A stretch of 64,000 nt of DNA from Parvivirga hydrogeniphila. GTDB taxonomy: Bacteria > Actinomycetota > Coriobacteriia > Anaerosomatales > Anaerosomataceae. Within the stretch, counting starts at the first letter, position 1; each line of letters begins with the position of its first letter. Made by a program: the position numbers and the translations under genes. The notes under the pieces were generated by a model, which saw nothing but the letters and a program-made list of their open reading frames with translations, ran no database searches and had not been told where the DNA came from. The stretch lies in contig NZ_JAMCCO010000001.1 in NCBI RefSeq assembly GCF_023371205.1, positions 864,662 to 928,661 on the forward strand, written 5' to 3'. Shown here piece after piece: positions 10,236 through 18,103 of this stretch.

Positions 10236-10411
10236 ACGTCGTTGACTCCTCGGCCTGGCTCGAGTACTTCGGCGACGGCCCGAACGCCTCGGAGTTCGCC
10301 CCGGTGATCGAGGACCCGGATCATCTCGTCGTGCCCACGCTCACCATCTTCGAGGTGTTGTCATGGGTTCCCTGCAGACCCATCCATGCTAAGATCTCTC
10401 GGGGATGCTAG
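10232..10411 (+). pseudogene. vapC: VapC PIN-domain toxin truncated by the CRISPR array
   Basis: GTG at 10232 begins a PIN domain (MNVVDSSAWLEYFGDG) with the first catalytic Asp at residue 5. It reads on to VVPTLTIFEVL, which holds the second conserved acidic residue (Glu). At 10360 the coding sequence runs directly into the first CRISPR repeat, and the frame ends at a TAG at 10409-10411 within the first spacer. The C-terminal two-thirds, with the remaining catalytic acids, is absent on either side of the array. A deletion or an array-linked rearrangement removed it. The protein should be inactive as an RNase. Confidence 0.85.
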
Positions 10412-13205
10412 CGTCGCTCACTGGCAGTCATGGGTTCCCTGCAGACCCATCCATGCTAAGATCAGGACGAGGCGGAAGGCCGAGCAACCGCCGGTCATGG
10501 GTTCCCTGCAGACCCATCCATGCTAAGATCGATCTCGACGCTCTCCACGTTGGTGAACGTGTCATGGGTTCCCTGCAGACCCATCCATGCTAAGATCCGG
10601 CGTCGCGCCGCTTGGGCGGGTTCTTCAGTCATGGGTTCCCTGCAGACCCATCCATGCTAAGATCCAGACGCGGCGGGAAGGTCGCCGTCGTCGAGTCATG
10701 GGTTCCCTGCAGACCCATCCATGCTAAGATCGCACCGCCTCCACGACCTCGGCGGCCGTCGGTCATGGGTTCCCTGCAGACCCATCCATGCTAAGATCGG
10801 CGGGCATCCTCACGAAAGGCATGCAGATGTCATGGGTTCCCTGCAGACCCATCCATGCTAAGATCCTGCGAGGATTGTGCCTTTGCCAGGAAGCGTCATG
10901 GGTTCCCTGCAGACCCATCCATGCTAAGATCCGCGATGCGTTTCGAGGTGATGCCCATGCGGTCATGGGTTCCCTGCAGACCCATCCATGCTAAGATCGA
11001 CGCCCGTTTGAGTTGGACGTATCCGTGAGTCATGGGTTCCCTGCAGACCCATCCATGCTAAGATCCGAGCGCAAGGCGTCGATCGCGACAGGCCGGTCAT
11101 GGGTTCCCTGCAGACCCATCCATGCTAAGATCCCTGCAGCTCGCTGTCGAGCTCGCCTCGCGGTCATGGGTTCCCTGCAGACCCATCCATGCTAAGATCA
11201 CTACTTGGTAGTACCGCATGACCTGCTCCGTCATGGGTTCCCTGCAGACCCATCCATGCTAAGATCCGATCCACGCCGGCCTGGTACCCGCGCCTGTCAT
11301 GGGTTCCCTGCAGACCCATCCATGCTAAGATCGCATGGCTCGCAACGCACGACTCACGACACGTCATGGGTTCCCTGCAGACCCATCCATGCTAAGATCC
11401 CGTGCTCTCCGAGCGCTGCATCGTCTGCGGTCATGGGTTCCCTGCAGACCCATCCATGCTAAGATCAGCTGGTGGCGGTCGCCTCGGCGACGCCGCGTCA
11501 TGGGTTCCCTGCAGACCCATCCATGCTAAGATCCGCCCGCTGGGTGCGACGTCTGCGTCGAGTGTCATGGGTTCCCTGCAGACCCATCCATGCTAAGATC
11601 GTGGTTCACCAGAGGTCCGCCCACGGCGCGGTCATGGGTTCCCTGCAGACCCATCCATGCTAAGATCCCGTGACCGTCTCCTCTCCTGCCGGGTTCAGTC
11701 ATGGGTTCCCTGCAGACCCATCCATGCTAAGATCTTCTCGAACGTCTCGAAGTCGTAGCGCGCGTCATGGGTTCCCTGCAGACCCATCCATGCTAAGATC
11801 GTCCTGTTTCTGTACTAACCATGGTGTTGTGTCATGGGTTCCCTGCAGACCCATCCATGCTAAGATCCCGAAACGCTGTATGAGACGAACGATACGAAGT
11901 CATGGGTTCCCTGCAGACCCATCCATGCTAAGATCTCAGCATCTGACAGACATCTTCTTTCCGCAGTCATGGGTTCCCTGCAGACCCATCCATGCTAAGA
12001 TCCCAGTGCTTGCAGGTGACGAGTTCGATTACGTCATGGGTTCCCTGCAGACCCATCCATGCTAAGATCCCTCGGCCTCGTCCTGGTAGAGCTCGCCGCG
12101 TCATGGGTTCCCTGCAGACCCATCCATGCTAAGATCGGCGCTTCTGCGTGAACTACGGCTCGCCTGGTCATGGGTTCCCTGCAGACCCATCCATGCTAAG
12201 ATCCGGTTCGCCGATGAGGACATGGTGACGGACGTCATGGGTTCCCTGCAGACCCATCCATGCTAAGATCAAGGCATCACCGCGCTCGCGCGCTCCGGCG
12301 GTCATGGGTTCCCTGCAGACCCATCCATGCTAAGATCGCTGCCGTGTAGTCCCTCACTTCCATGGTGGTCATGGGTTCCCTGCAGACCCATCCATGCTAA
12401 GATCGGCCGAGGCGCGGGGAGCGGAGGCGAGCGGTCATGGGTTCCCTGCAGACCCATCCATGCTAAGATCATAGCGGCCGTAGTCCTTGACGGCCTTGCG
12501 GTCATGGGTTCCCTGCAGACCCATCCATGCTAAGATCCTAGTCGAAGCCGAGAGCGATGATCCGTAGTCATGGGTTCCCTGCAGACCCATCCATGCTAAG
12601 ATCTCAAGGCCTCCGGCGGGGGGGCACCCCCCGGTCATGGGTTCCCTGCAGACCCATCCATGCTAAGATCCGCTTCGTAGATGGCCTCGTCTGTCATGGT
12701 GTCATGGGTTCCCTGCAGACCCATCCATGCTAAGATCGAGGGCGTTCAGGTTCGTCCGCGCCTTGAGTCATGGGTTCCCTGCAGACCCATCCATGCTAAG
12801 ATCTGCGCCGCTTCGATTGCAGCTCTTCCTGGCGTCATGGGTTCCCTGCAGACCCATCCATGCTAAGATCCGCACGCAATCTATCCGGTGCTGATTCAGG
12901 GTCATGGGTTCCCTGCAGACCCATCCATGCTAAGATCTGATAGCGCGGAGGATGGAGTAGTTGCGGGGTCATGGGTTCCCTGCAGACCCATCCATGCTAA
13001 GATCGTTCCAGGTTCAGGGTGCACATGGCTCATGGTCATGGGTTCCCTGCAGACCCATCCATGCTAAGATCGACCCTTATCCGGGACGGCGAGGCCTCTC
13101 TGTCATGGGTTCCCTGCAGACCCATCCATGCTAAGATCTCGCATTGCACGCGTTCGTCGCGTCGCGCAGTCATGGGTTCCCTGCAGACCCATCCATGCTA
13201 AGATC
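10360..13205 (+). CRISPR. Type II-C CRISPR array, 43 repeats / 42 spacers
   Basis: Forty-three copies of a 37-base repeat start at 10360, 10427, 10494 and so on to 13169. Each begins GTCATGGGTTCCCTGCAG and ends CCATCCATGCTAAGATC. By eye all copies are identical, including both terminal ones. Spacers are 30 bases, except the 8th, 14th, 21st, 31st, 33rd and 36th (29) and the 23rd (31), and all differ. The final G of each unit's start and the final C are invariant, so the repeat is 37 rather than the usual 36. The TGCTAAGAT at repeat positions 28-36 is an extended -10 element pointing into each spacer on the + strand. No AT-rich leader is seen at either end: the left flank is vapC and the right flank is a terminator and cas2. 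Confidence 0.98.
10387..10395 (+). promoter_or_regulatory. Repeat-embedded extended -10 promoter (first of 43)
   Basis: TGCTAAGAT, at positions 28-36 of every repeat, fits TGnTAnnnT. Transcription would start about 6-7 bases into the following spacer and give crRNAs with roughly 24-nt guides. This parallels the TGCTACAAT and TGGTAAAAT ends of Neisseria and Campylobacter type II-C repeats, which are known or proposed promoters. There is no recognisable -35, which extended -10 promoters can do without. The same element recurs in all 43 repeats. Activity is inferred. Confidence 0.6.
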
Positions 13206-13215
13206 CGAGCATGGA

Positions 13216-13249
13216 AAAGCCCCAGGTCAGAATGCTGATCTGGGGCTTT
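13216..13249. terminator. Bidirectional terminator between array and cas2
   Basis: A 15-base stem (AAAGCCCCAGGTCAG against CTGATCTGGGGCTTT, one G-U type mismatch) with an AATG loop. On the - strand it ends GGGGCTTTTCC and on the + strand GGGGCTTTGC, so it can stop the cas operon coming from the right and crRNA transcripts coming from the left. The two units are convergent here. Confidence 0.85.
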
Positions 13250-13271
13250 GCATTGCCGCAAATCTGGCCGT

Positions 13272-13589
13272 TTAGAAGGTCAGTTGCTCGTACGCGCACT
13301 GTTTTTCCTCGGGTTTCTGCTGTCCGAGCAGCACTTCTATTGATGCGTACTGCTTCTCCGTCACGACCATGCATCGCACGCTCCCTTTGGGAGGCAGGTG
13401 CGCCTTCAGACGCGCGAGATGCATCTCCGTCCGATCGAGTCCGCCGCACGCGCGGCCGTAGACAGAGAACTGTATCGGATAGTACCCGTCGCGGAGCAGG
13501 AAGCGGCGGAACTCGGCGTAGTGGCGCTTGTCTCGCCGCGTCTTCACTGGCAAGTCGAAGAAGACTATGAGCCGCATCAGACGACCCAT
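13272..13589 (-). CDS. cas2: CRISPR-associated endonuclease Cas2
   Basis: A 105-residue ferredoxin-fold Cas2, the structural partner of Cas1 in spacer integration. The N-terminus MGRLMRLIVFFDLPVKTRR carries the conserved Asp (residue 12) after the first strand, and FSVYGRACGG is typical of type II Cas2. It starts 7 bases after the cas1 stop; an alternative start is the Met at residue 5. It is the last gene of the cas operon, ending 22 bases before the shared terminator. No cas4 or csn2 is present. Confidence 0.92.
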   Translation of the reverse strand: MGRLMRLIVFFDLPVKTRRDKRHYAEFRRFLLRDGYYPIQFSVYGRACGGLDRTEMHLARLKAHLPPKGSVRCMVVTEKQYASIEVLLGQQKPEEKQCAYEQLTF

Positions 13590-13596
13590 CCCGGCC

Positions 13597-14502
13597 CTAC
13601 TCGTATCGGCGGACTTCTCCCCCGACCAGCTCAGGAAGGCTCACTTTGCGGTGGTCTCGCGCGAGCACGGCGCGGGCGTACGACTCTGCAACCTCCTGAG
13701 CTGCTGTGGATATGCAGTACGCATTTCCATATATCGAGCACTCCAGCCGGAGGGTTGAGAGCAAATACGACCGGTATTCGGAAGTAAGTTCGCGCTCGGT
13801 CTGCGGAGGCTGGCTGAACACCATGAGGTCCACGAACGGTCGGAACACCTCGACGAAATCGTCCGCGAGGTTGAACGGGTTGGCTGCTCCTCTGTGGCCG
13901 ACGCCCAGAGCGCACTGCAGTCCTGTCGAAGCCAAAGACCGCGCGACCGCGGCACGGACCACGGCGTACCCGTAGTCGAGCGCGGCACTGGTGGAACTTT
14001 CGGAGCGGCGCTTGAATCCAGGCCCGAGGAACTTGAAGTACTCTCGGGCGGCGTACGCTTCACGCCCGGTGGAGTCGCCCGACTTGACCGTGGCAGCGAT
14101 CTGACGCAGCTTCTCGCTCCCTGGTCTGCCGAGCTCATCGAGGCACCGTGCTGCATTGCGGATCTTCTGCTGGACGATTCGTTGCCACACGCGCTTCTTG
14201 AACGGTTCCGTCAGGTCGATTTGAGCTTGCAAGAGCGGGGGGATGCGAGGGTTCTGGGCATAGGGGAGAAGGACACCGCACGGCGTGTGCTTGCGGTCGA
14301 CCACGAGCAGAGCGATGCCCCGAGTCGCAAGTTCGCTCAAGACGGGGACGCTCACGCTCCCTTGCGGCGATTCGATGAGTATGGTGTCGATATCTTCGAT
14401 GGGCAGGGTGAGCTGTCGGTCATCACGCTCGAGGTGCAGGTTGCCATCACGCACCACCAGGCGCGCGTCCGAGGTGACGATGAGAGTCCGCCAGCCGGCC
14501 AT
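13597..14502 (-). CDS. cas1: CRISPR-associated integrase Cas1
   Basis: A 301-residue Cas1 that, with Cas2, cuts and joins new spacers into the array. The N-terminal beta domain (SDARLVVRDGNLHLERDD) leads to the alpha-helical catalytic domain. The metal ligands are Glu148 (TGREAYAAREYF), His203 (LGVGHRGAANPF) and Glu218 (DDFVEVFRPFVD). Length and order (cas9-cas1-cas2) are typical of type II-C. It begins 5 bases after cas9, which implies one transcript. Confidence 0.95.
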   Translation of the reverse strand: MAGWRTLIVTSDARLVVRDGNLHLERDDRQLTLPIEDIDTILIESPQGSVSVPVLSELATRGIALLVVDRKHTPCGVLLPYAQNPRIPPLLQAQIDLTEPFKKRVWQRIVQQKIRNAARCLDELGRPGSEKLRQIAATVKSGDSTGREAYAAREYFKFLGPGFKRRSESSTSAALDYGYAVVRAAVARSLASTGLQCALGVGHRGAANPFNLADDFVEVFRPFVDLMVFSQPPQTERELTSEYRSYLLSTLRLECSIYGNAYCISTAAQEVAESYARAVLARDHRKVSLPELVGGEVRRYE

Positions 14503-14507
14503 GGGCG

Positions 14508-17500
14508 CTACAAGGGGCGCTTACCGGGTCGCTTGACGGTGCTCACTTCTCCCAGGAGACCGACGTCGATTTTTTCGATTCTGTCGGCAGTCTTGGGCGA
14601 TACGCGCACAGCATCTACTTTTCCATCGGGTGCGCGATTCGCGCGATCGTGCAAGTTGCCCTCTATTCTTACGTTGGCCACATCGAACGATGTCATGTAC
14701 AGCAGCGGCCCGGCCTTGTCTTTCTCGTGCCACACGCGGAAGTAGTCGCCTTTATACAGTGAGAACAAGAACTCATAAGTGTTGTCTATCACGAGCCACT
14801 CCGATTCAGGTTTTCCCTTTAGCGCAGCTTTGTTTGGCACCCAGCCAGCGGCGATATCAGCGGCGTAGACCGGCACCACGTGATGCTGCATGCGGCCGGT
14901 CTTGCTTGGTTTCCGGTAGATGTCCAACCGGACAATCCTGTCACGCTCGGCGAGTCCGCTACGCACCACTACCCCTGAGCGAGCTTTCGTGAACAGCCGG
15001 ATGCTCCGCACCACAGGTCCCGGAGACCCGTCGTTGGTCGGCATGCGCAGCGGCTCAGCTTGGGCGCCGAACGCCCGCTCGGCCCACGTCTTGCCGGTCT
15101 CGTGCTCGACGGCGCGCAGGCGCTCGCGGATCAACTGGTACAGCCGCCAGTTGGCTTCCTCGTCCACCAAGATGGGGGAGGGCTCCTCGAGGATGTCTCG
15201 TATCTGGGAGTCGCTGAGTTGCGTCAGCTTGGTGCGCCGCGTCGGCCGCGGATCGTTGGGGGCGAGCGCGACACGCCCGCGCTCCGGCAGCTCGCCAAGC
15301 GCCTTCCTGACGTGTTTCAGGGAGTAAATCGTCTCCTTATGGCCGCGGCCGGACATGCGGCGGTTCGGCATCCTTGAGACCACGATGCCCTGCACCGCCT
15401 CGATGACGTCTTCGCGGAAGCCTGGCCACGGCTCCAATACGGGAGGTTCAGCAACCTCGCCGGTCAGCGGGTCAACCCAGCGTCCGTCTGGCGTCTTCTC
15501 GTAGGACTCGCGTGCTTTGAAGTACCGGGCCATACGGTGCACCATCTTGTGGTCGGCAAGCGCGCAGAGCGTCGCGTCGATGGCGTGGTGCGTGTCGCTC
15601 GCCTGGCGGTCCTTCTCTTCGCCGAGACCCAAGTGCCACCTCAAGTCGTTCGTCATCCTGCCATTCACCGAAAGGACGCGGCTCTCCGGGACGTCGAGGT
15701 GGTCTTTGAGGATGCCCAGGAAGTAGCGGGCTGCGTACTGCGTGGAGACCAGATACCGGCCCTGGAGCTCGCGGCGCTGCTCTTCGGTCAGCTCCTCGGT
15801 GAGAAGCAGGCGCTTCTTCTTCGACGGCATCTGCGAGCTTTGCACCCATGCGCTGTACCGCTCGAAGTGCGCATCACCGTGCGCGCGCCGCACGTACACC
15901 GCGGCGAGCTCATCGCCCTTGTTACGGTTCTCGCCCGCCAAGACCAGCACCTTGTTCGCCATCGAATCGTCGAACGACACGCTGCGTGGCACGGCATGGT
16001 CGATCTCGGTGTACGAGCCGTCGGTGAGAACCCGCTGAAGATCAAGCTCCTTGAGGGAGTATGCGCACTTGCCGCCCTGTTGCTCGTACAGGAAGTACTT
16101 GCGCCACACGCGTTCAGGCACCGCGCCTGGAGCGATCTCGCGGATTCGATCGAAGATGCGCTCCTTCTCTCTGCGGTTCTTGAGCTGCTCTTGCTCGATC
16201 TCGCGTCGCTTCGATGGGCTGATCGCCGCTTCGCGCGCAAGCTCGACCGCGACGCGTGACGGGAGCCCGTATTCGGCGACGATTGCGTTGACGACCTTGC
16301 GCGCTTGCGTGAGCGCGCGCTTCACGTTGGGGTTGGTGATGGAGTTGAAGTCCTCCAGCGTGTCGAGCGGTGGGATTCGGTCGGACTTCGTCCCGACCTG
16401 CCGCTGCGAGTGGTTGTAGCCGGCCGCCTCGCAGGCCTCGCTGTACAGCATGCCCTGCTCGAGGTAGGGGATGAGGGTGCGCATGGCCTTGAGAGACAGC
16501 CGCCCATGTCCGTCGAAGACCACTGAGTCTGCCAGCTTGCGGGCGGCGCCGTCCTCGATGCCGAGTTCGACCAGCGCAGCGTAGGCCGAGTCTTTGCGCA
16601 GCCAGTAGGTGAGCCGACTGGCGACCTCGTCGAGCAGCTCGATGTCGGAGCGCAAGCGCTGCCAGGTTGCGGGGAAGTCCTTCTCGAGCGCGCTTCTGAG
16701 CTTGTGGTACGACTCGAGCTTCAGCAGTATCTCGTTCTGCATGTCGGCGAGCGTCTTGCCCCGCTTGCGCCCGCGCACCTCGAAGAGCCAGCCGTCTTCC
16801 ACGCCGAGCGCTTTGAGGGCTCGCTTGTACTTCAGATCCTTGACCTCGAGGGCCTCCTCGAACAGCAGCGCGATCTCCTCAGGATCCAAGCGTCGCCTCG
16901 ATCCGGAGGTGTGCGTGAGCGACTGGTTCACGAGCGTCTGGAGCGCCATGAACTTCTGGAATGTGAAGGTGGCTTTGGGGGCGCGGCGTTCTTCGGGCTC
17001 GAGGAAGCAGCGGCCGACCTTGCGCATGAGCTCATCGCCTTCGGCCAGGCGCGGCGGCTCATCGACGATCTCGACGTAGGCGTCCTCCATCTCCTTGGTG
17101 GCATACGGGTTGCCGAGCCGCCGCTGCGCCTCGAACAGCGTGCGGGCCTCGGCGATGAGATCGTCTCGTCCGATCGTGCAGATGTACTGGCCGCCCTTGT
17201 TCCGGCGCTGCTCGCCGTACGGCCAGTCCGGCGATTCCAGGTACTCGGCCACCGTCCGGTAGCCGTGCGCAACCATCCCATCGTGGATGCCCTTCACGCC
17301 GCTCAGCATCTCGCCGAGCTTCTTCTTCTCCTCCTGGTCGGCTGTCTCGAGTTCTCCACGCTTCGTGGACTTGAAGCCGCGGTGCCGGGCGATGTGAAAC
17401 AGCGCTCGCGCCCACTCGCGCGGCTCGAGCAACCGGTCGAGGCCCTGCACTCTGAGCTGCCAGGGCGTCAGGTCGTCGGGCCACGTGCGGAGGAAGTCTT

Positions 17501-17774
17501 CGAGCTCGTCGCGGCTGCTCACGAGCCCGTGCTGAGCGAACAGCTCTGCGACGCGGCGCAAACGGCGCTTCCGGTTGCGGAGGCGGCGCCGCTGGCTCCG
17601 CGCGACGCGACGCTCCTCAGCAGGCGTCGTCGCGTTCGCGGCTTCTTTTCGGACGGCGTCGAAGGCCCTCACGCCGAGCCGAACGAGCCGGACAGGCTCG
17701 TCAGCGTCGTTCAGCTCGACGACGCTCCAGCCGACGCTCTCGCTTCCGATGTCGAGACCCAACGAGTAGCGCAT
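14508..17774 (-). CDS. cas9: Type II-C Cas9 nuclease (compact, GeoCas9-like)
   Basis: A 1088-residue RNA-guided DNA endonuclease. RuvC-I is at the N-terminus (MRYSLGLDIGSESVGWSVVE, Asp8). An Arg-rich bridge helix follows (about 52-76, RRVARSQRRRLRNRKRRLRR). RuvC-II has Glu511 (VAVELAREA). The HNH domain contains CAYS (570-573), EIDHAVPRSVSFDD (His593), NKVLVLAGENRNKGD. RuvC-III is DTHHAIDATL (His730, Asp733). A divergent PAM-interacting region ends the protein. Length and many local blocks (RALTQARKVVNAI, RAPKATFTFQ, NGRMTNDLRW) resemble Geobacillus Cas9 (about 1087 residues). All catalytic residues are present. I chose ATG 17774 because the family starts at MRY; the frame is open 26 codons further upstream without support. 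A GGGGGTG precedes the start. Confidence 0.95.
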   Translation of the reverse strand: MRYSLGLDIGSESVGWSVVELNDADEPVRLVRLGVRAFDAVRKEAANATTPAEERRVARSQRRRLRNRKRRLRRVAELFAQHGLVSSRDELEDFLRTWPDDLTPWQLRVQGLDRLLEPREWARALFHIARHRGFKSTKRGELETADQEEKKKLGEMLSGVKGIHDGMVAHGYRTVAEYLESPDWPYGEQRRNKGGQYICTIGRDDLIAEARTLFEAQRRLGNPYATKEMEDAYVEIVDEPPRLAEGDELMRKVGRCFLEPEERRAPKATFTFQKFMALQTLVNQSLTHTSGSRRRLDPEEIALLFEEALEVKDLKYKRALKALGVEDGWLFEVRGRKRGKTLADMQNEILLKLESYHKLRSALEKDFPATWQRLRSDIELLDEVASRLTYWLRKDSAYAALVELGIEDGAARKLADSVVFDGHGRLSLKAMRTLIPYLEQGMLYSEACEAAGYNHSQRQVGTKSDRIPPLDTLEDFNSITNPNVKRALTQARKVVNAIVAEYGLPSRVAVELAREAAISPSKRREIEQEQLKNRREKERIFDRIREIAPGAVPERVWRKYFLYEQQGGKCAYSLKELDLQRVLTDGSYTEIDHAVPRSVSFDDSMANKVLVLAGENRNKGDELAAVYVRRAHGDAHFERYSAWVQSSQMPSKKKRLLLTEELTEEQRRELQGRYLVSTQYAARYFLGILKDHLDVPESRVLSVNGRMTNDLRWHLGLGEEKDRQASDTHHAIDATLCALADHKMVHRMARYFKARESYEKTPDGRWVDPLTGEVAEPPVLEPWPGFREDVIEAVQGIVVSRMPNRRMSGRGHKETIYSLKHVRKALGELPERGRVALAPNDPRPTRRTKLTQLSDSQIRDILEEPSPILVDEEANWRLYQLIRERLRAVEHETGKTWAERAFGAQAEPLRMPTNDGSPGPVVRSIRLFTKARSGVVVRSGLAERDRIVRLDIYRKPSKTGRMQHHVVPVYAADIAAGWVPNKAALKGKPESEWLVIDNTYEFLFSLYKGDYFRVWHEKDKAGPLLYMTSFDVANVRIEGNLHDRANRAPDGKVDAVRVSPKTADRIEKIDVGLLGEVSTVKRPGKRPL

Positions 17775-17856: not shown

Positions 17857-17880
17857 AGAATGGAATCGCGGACGGAGCGC

Positions 17881-17967
17881 CGGTCCGAATCCGACGGCGG
17901 AACGGGCCTGGATCCGGGTCCGAAGGCGGAACGGGCCTGGATCCGGGTCCGAAGGCGGAACGGGCGG
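17881..17967. repeat. Three tandem 29-base repeats between tracrRNA and cas9
   Basis: Three adjacent 29-base units (17881-17909, 17910-17938, 17939-17967). Copies 2 and 3 differ only in the last two bases; copy 1 matches at about 24 of 29. The shared core is GGCGGAACGGGC preceded by TCCG repeats. They fill the space between the tracrRNA end and the putative cas9 promoter. Function is unknown: a protein-binding array or simple slippage expansion are both possible. Confidence 0.8.
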
Positions 17968-17977
17968 AATCCGGCCC

Positions 17978-18069
17978 CAAGAAAACGGATACCCCCGGAG
18001 CCGAAGCCTCGGGGGGCTACCGTGCGGCGCTGAAGGCGGAGCCAACAGCGTTATCATGGGAACCCTGCA
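17978..18069 (-). ncRNA. tracrRNA for the type II-C Cas9
   Basis: Read on the - strand, the RNA would begin TCTGCAGGGTTCCCATGA (18069-18052). This pairs with the first part of the CRISPR repeat (bases 2-19) at 16 of 18 positions, the exceptions being a central pair of U-U mismatches. The nexus-like region (CGCTG...CAGCG) follows. Then comes a terminator stem at 17992-18015 (CCCCCGAGGC, loop TTCG, GCTCCGGGGG) and a T-rich run (GTTTTCTT, to about 17979). Size is about 92 nt, comparable to other II-C tracrRNAs. A strong promoter sits directly upstream. It lies between cas9 and rpsA, on the cas9 strand. Confidence 0.88.
17979..18015 (-). terminator. tracrRNA terminator with UUCG tetraloop
   Basis: A 10-base stem with one A-C mismatch closed by C(UUCG)G, followed on the - strand by GGTATCCGTTTTCTT. 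A classic intrinsic terminator that would also form the 3' stem of the tracrRNA, separating it from cas9. Confidence 0.85.
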
Positions 18070-18074
18070 GAGCC

Positions 18075-18103
18075 TTTATAGCAAGGCCGGCATCTCTCGT
18101 CAA
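18075..18103 (-). promoter_or_regulatory. tracrRNA promoter
   Basis: TTGACG (18098-18103) and TATAAA (18075-18080) on the - strand with exactly 17 bases between them. The -10 is also extended (TGCTATAAA). The predicted start at about 18069 falls on the first paired base of the anti-repeat. It is among the best sigma-70-type promoters in the window. Confidence 0.85.

Follow-up and report, generated by a model that had tools for sequence, protein, structure and literature searches.

A type II-C locus with a compact Cas9 and a CRISPR array

The minus strand of the analysed window, a 64,000-nt stretch of the Parvivirga hydrogeniphila genome, carries cas9 (14508-17774), cas1 (13597-14502) and cas2 (13272-13589), the only cas genes of the locus, as well as a predicted tracrRNA gene (17978-18069) upstream of cas9 and in the same direction, whereas the CRISPR array (10360-13205) is read convergently from the plus strand. 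The 1088-aa Cas9 features RuvC and HNH domains (TIGR01865, 691 bits; HNH_4, RuvC_III and Cas9_a), Cas1 is best matched by a type II model (TIGR03639, 259.5 bits), and Cas2 is recognised by TIGR01573 and, in PADLOC, as Cas2_II. The closest solved chains to Cas9 are 8jtj/8uzb and 6jdq/6kc8 at about 505-507 bits, which we take to be GeoCas9 and Nme1Cas9, respectively; 1053-aa Cas9 chains reach 187 bits and 1368-aa chains 67 bits, and it is by this best match to solved chains that the protein is placed in the compact II-C clade. A genome-wide search for cas4, with a positive control that was matched, came back empty; csn2 was not found either, in a search that is uninformative by itself since its positive control also had no match. 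An RNase III gene is present in the genome, and no relatives of this Cas9 were found in viral contigs.

The array is composed of 43 identical copies of a 37-nt repeat, GTCATGGGTTCCCTGCAGACCCATCCATGCTAAGATC, separated by 42 spacers of 29-31 nt that all differ from one another and of which none is common to the sister species of the genus. TG-C-TAAGAT, which has the form of an extended -10, closes every repeat (TGCTAAGAT, found in 43/43 repeats). Arrays convergent to the cas genes and a gnTAnaaT promoter at the repeat 3' end are described for type II-C systems (PMC4607530), and the type II-C assignment of the original prediction is thus borne out by a gene content of cas9-cas1-cas2 only, a compact Cas9, the convergent array and the promoter motif at the 3' end of the repeat. 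Degenerate first repeats are frequent in type II-C arrays without being required (PMC12080349, PMC4607530), and none is found at either end of this one. A search of the whole array against phages and plasmids returned chance-level matches only, IMG/VR yielded no sequence identical to the 3' 20 nt of three cas2-proximal spacers, and no self-targets beyond chance were detected. Directly after the last, cas2-proximal repeat lies a 14-bp hairpin (13206-13252, plus strand; fold z -5.2) that is conserved in three genus members and sits where new spacers would enter, type II-C spacers being added at the last repeat (PMC12080349). This element may be a bidirectional terminator between the convergent transcripts, or a leader or anchor element for spacer insertion.

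A predicted tracrRNA gene upstream of cas9

The predicted tracrRNA gene presents, outside the array and near cas9, an anti-repeat that is complementary to the cognate CRISPR repeat and followed by nexus and terminator-like hairpins. Its transcript is predicted to run from about 18069 to about 17982, with the cas9 start codon some 204 nt downstream of the predicted 3' end. The putative promoter was exactly as originally proposed, with TTGACG (18098-18103) separated by 17 nt from TATAAA (18075-18080) on the minus strand; the latter is part of an extended -10, TGC-TATAAA (18075-18083), and is followed on the same strand by GGCTC and then TGCAGGGTTCCCATGATAACGCTGTTGGCTCCGCCTTCAGCGCCGCACGGTAGCCCCCCGAGGCTTCGGCTCCGGGGGTATCCGTTTTC. 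TTGAC and TGnTA are both invariant in the 4/4 genus members, and the hexamer is of the TGnTA type without final T, ending in A here and in G or A in the relatives.

Of the 18 bases of the anti-repeat (18053-18070, minus strand), 16 pair with repeat nucleotides 1-18, the exception being UU/UU at positions 9 and 10 of the repeat; this agrees exactly with the original description, including the neighbouring U-U mismatches. With an RNA start at 18069, the pairing covers repeat nucleotides 1-17. Allowing up to three mismatches, a search of the 1.84-Mb genome returned the 43 repeats and the anti-repeat site as the only matches without mismatch, the next best having two, and genome-wide searches found no second anti-repeat and no second array. 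By chance, given its base composition, the 1.84-Mb genome should contain about 0.001 sites that match all 16 fixed bases, and the 300 bp preceding cas9 about 2e-7. The original prediction had named a better anti-repeat at some other genomic site as an observation that would speak against it; the genome-wide search found none.

Furthermore, when 30-nt windows on both strands of the 64 kb were scanned against the first 24 nt of the repeat, no site in the window formed a more stable duplex with the crRNA repeat than the anti-repeat did (-36.7 kcal/mol); unrelated sites reached -32.6 at best. The opposite orientation of the array was rejected, since no duplex partner above background appears when the array is read the other way. 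Together, the top duplex strength of the site and the lack of anything notable in the opposite sense establish which element is the anti-repeat and also the crRNA sense, which is that of the plus strand; orientation from the anti-repeat, together with the II-C convention (PMC4607530), makes the array convergent with the cas genes.

Beyond the anti-repeat, the tail of the RNA (fold z -3.4) contains two hairpins. The first is nexus-like, CGCUG-UU-GGC-ucc-GCC-UU-CAGCG (18028-18050, minus strand), its arms being invariant and its loop variable within the genus. The second is a terminal hairpin of the form ACGG..CCCCC..GGGGG..CCGU followed by UUUU (17982-18023, minus strand). Its inner part is separated from the T-run by UAUCCG, a gap that is bridged because CCGU pairs with the upstream ACGG, so that the short T-run directly follows the stem. 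Of the proposed UUCG terminator, the hairpin, the UUCG in its loop and a short T-run are all present, but the UUCG itself appears incidental, as the loop reads UUCG, AUAC, UUCG and UUCA across the four genus members. Strict consensus scans call neither promoter nor terminator at the tracrRNA locus, because the -10 lacks the final T and the T-run consists of TTTT only; conservation of TTGAC and TGnTA, as well as the extended hairpin leading into the U-run, support a putative promoter and terminator. Rfam searches yielded sub-threshold noise only, without any tracrRNA-type match. Separately, a unit of about 29 nt (GCGGAACGGGCCTGGATCCGGGTCCGAAG) occurs in three tandem copies between the tracrRNA gene and cas9 (17868-17965) and is absent from the three sister genomes of the genus.

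Conservation in the genus and co-variation with a sister clade

The genus comparison comprises this genome and three others (G008, G009 and G010), all of which carry the locus. Their aligned upstream regions share nearly nothing but TTGAC, TGnTA and then an abrupt block that opens with TGCAGGG and closes with the terminal hairpin, amounting to 92 nt conserved in four species between non-conserved flanks. A covariance model of this block has one match in each genus genome (4/4, 110-117 bits; 110.5 bits here) and none at E <= 0.001 in the other 65 genomes of the order; as the four genus sequences match by construction, it is the uniqueness that is informative. Covariation of the hairpins within the genus is weak, since their stems are nearly invariant. 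One difference of the G008 repeat, A in place of G18, has its counterpart in a C-to-U change before TGCAGGG, just outside the predicted transcript. The block starts 5-6 nt past the -10 hexamer, where a transcript start is expected, and in type II-C systems the tracrRNA start has been placed at nucleotide seven past TGnTAnaaT (PMC4607530). The 5' end near 18069 and the 3' end near 17980 that had been forecast hold up in this comparison, the conserved block beginning at the predicted start site.

In eight other genomes of the order (L030-L034 and L036-L038), which encode a Cas9 of about 34-35% identity, a matching anti-repeat is found in 8/8 cases on the same strand, 151-173 nt upstream of the cas9 start codon. 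The sister-clade repeat, GTCTTAGCTCCCCGCCACACTCCGAAGTGGTACGCT(A), comes from arrays recognisable on the analysed stretches of 2/8 genomes; in the other 6/8, no complete array of the repeat was seen on the contig. Between genus and sister clade, 6/16 repeat/anti-repeat pairs are changed on both sides with pairing kept and none is changed on one side only, and in both clades the internal loop comes after pair eight. We regard these six compensatory pairs as the strongest evidence for a functional repeat/anti-repeat pairing, although they stem from a single comparison of two clades and are not six independent tests. Taken with conservation across the genus and uniqueness in the genome, this co-variation bears out the tracrRNA call and its strand. 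As to the unpaired uridines, for which recognition by RNase III or by Cas9 had been suggested, a loop found at this place in the sister-clade duplex too would fit an internal loop recognised by Cas9 at least as well as a role in RNase III recognition.

The sister-clade tracrRNAs resemble the present one in position and strand relative to cas9, in the 8-bp lower stem and in the internal loop, and their terminal hairpin is closed before the T-run by a 4-bp AAGG/CCUU equivalent to the ACGG/CCGU found here. They differ in a short GC-GAAA-GC nexus, an asymmetric 2x3 loop and longer anti-repeats that cover most of the repeat, and with the genus covariance model they score only weakly or escape detection. 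As the other carriers of such a Cas9 in the order use an unrelated repeat and tracrRNA, the genus Cas9 (about 35% identity) represents a distinct lineage, perhaps acquired separately.

These comparisons also bear on two other readings of the site. The anti-repeat could be a repeat copy that ended up upstream of cas9 and has since decayed and fallen transcriptionally silent, with the true tracrRNA encoded elsewhere, as the failure of strict scans to call a promoter or a terminator might suggest; the absence of other anti-repeats from the genome, strong purifying selection across the genus and compensatory change that keeps the pairing make this extremely improbable. Alternatively, a longer RNA started further upstream would provide a full-length anti-repeat, and the 18069 start would be wrong. 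In its favour, pairing with the repeat extends here beyond 18069 to 18074 with one mismatch, and the sister clade, with its longer anti-repeats, has a TGnTA-type motif about 35 nt before the anti-repeat; genus conservation, however, ends exactly at TGCAGGG, and the stretch between it and the -10 is free to vary, such that we consider a longer transcript unlikely.

Proposed function and relation to known type II-C systems

Overall, we consider it about 95% probable that the minus strand at 17978-18069 is a genuine tracrRNA gene within an intact type II-C CRISPR-Cas9 locus that works as proposed below, an estimate that covers the whole explanation, encompassing the observed sequence, uniqueness, conservation, pairing and co-variation together with the inferred transcription, processing and Cas9 loading. 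From the TTGAC/extended -10 promoter, transcription would begin at 18068-18069 and yield about 85-92 nt of RNA. Its first 17 nt or so would form a duplex with the 5' half of each crRNA's repeat portion (8 bp, the UU/UU loop, then 7-8 bp), and the remainder would fold into the nexus and terminator hairpins. Cas9 would bind the dual RNA through this duplex together with the hairpins. For the crRNAs, transcription is probably driven by the extended -10 that closes each repeat on its 3' side, with possible trimming by RNase III, a cleavage that we only infer. Given promoters in each repeat, processing-independent crRNAs are plausible. More tentatively, as the genus tracrRNA would start inside the anti-repeat and pair with no more than half of the repeat (about 17 nt, broken by the UU/UU loop), in contrast to near full-length pairing in the sister clade, guide production may, with per-repeat promoters, no longer need RNase III, a scenario that we regard as possible rather than probable.

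An RNA acting mainly on chromosomal genes, in the manner of a scaRNA or a long tracrRNA, would have precedent in regulatory roles reported for other type II loci, such as the type II-C scaRNA of Neisseria (PMC13431127). Here, however, 43 intact repeats, 42 different spacers, intact cas1-cas2 and the lack of spacers common to sister species point to an immune locus, leaving such a regulatory role with very little probability. In the preferred reading, a tracrRNA serving immunity, the locus supplies a complete guide-RNA pair for a compact Cas9, backed by comparative evidence. The nearest named relative of the lineage comes from a thermophilic biocathode (PMC5347234, PMC7943316), making this Cas9 testable as a small, possibly heat-stable enzyme. 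Moreover, two clades with the same duplex geometry and different repeat and tracrRNA sequences form a natural contrast from which the guide-RNA features recognised by Cas9 could be learned.

This kind of system is already well known, and the present locus is a new example of it; a literature search found no published description of this Cas9 or tracrRNA. With the type II-C loci of Campylobacter and Neisseria (PMC4607530, PMC3936727) it shares a cas9-cas1-cas2 gene set with a downstream, convergent array, the extended -10 (gnTAnaaT-like) at the repeat 3' end, a predicted tracrRNA start about 7 nt past a putative TGnTA promoter, and repeat changes that are matched in the tracrRNA. By contrast, the tracrRNA of C. 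jejuni lies beyond the array and not upstream of cas9 as here, its anti-repeat spans 24 nt where the present one has only about 17-18 nt, and the 37-nt repeat of this locus is unrelated in sequence to the Campylobacter/Neisseria type II-C repeats. The short anti-repeat with a predicted transcription start inside it, set against the longer one of the sister clade, is a mildly unusual trait. Finally, the solved Cas9s closest in sequence (8jtj/8uzb and 6jdq/6kc8) have a repeat and tracrRNA that differ from those found here.
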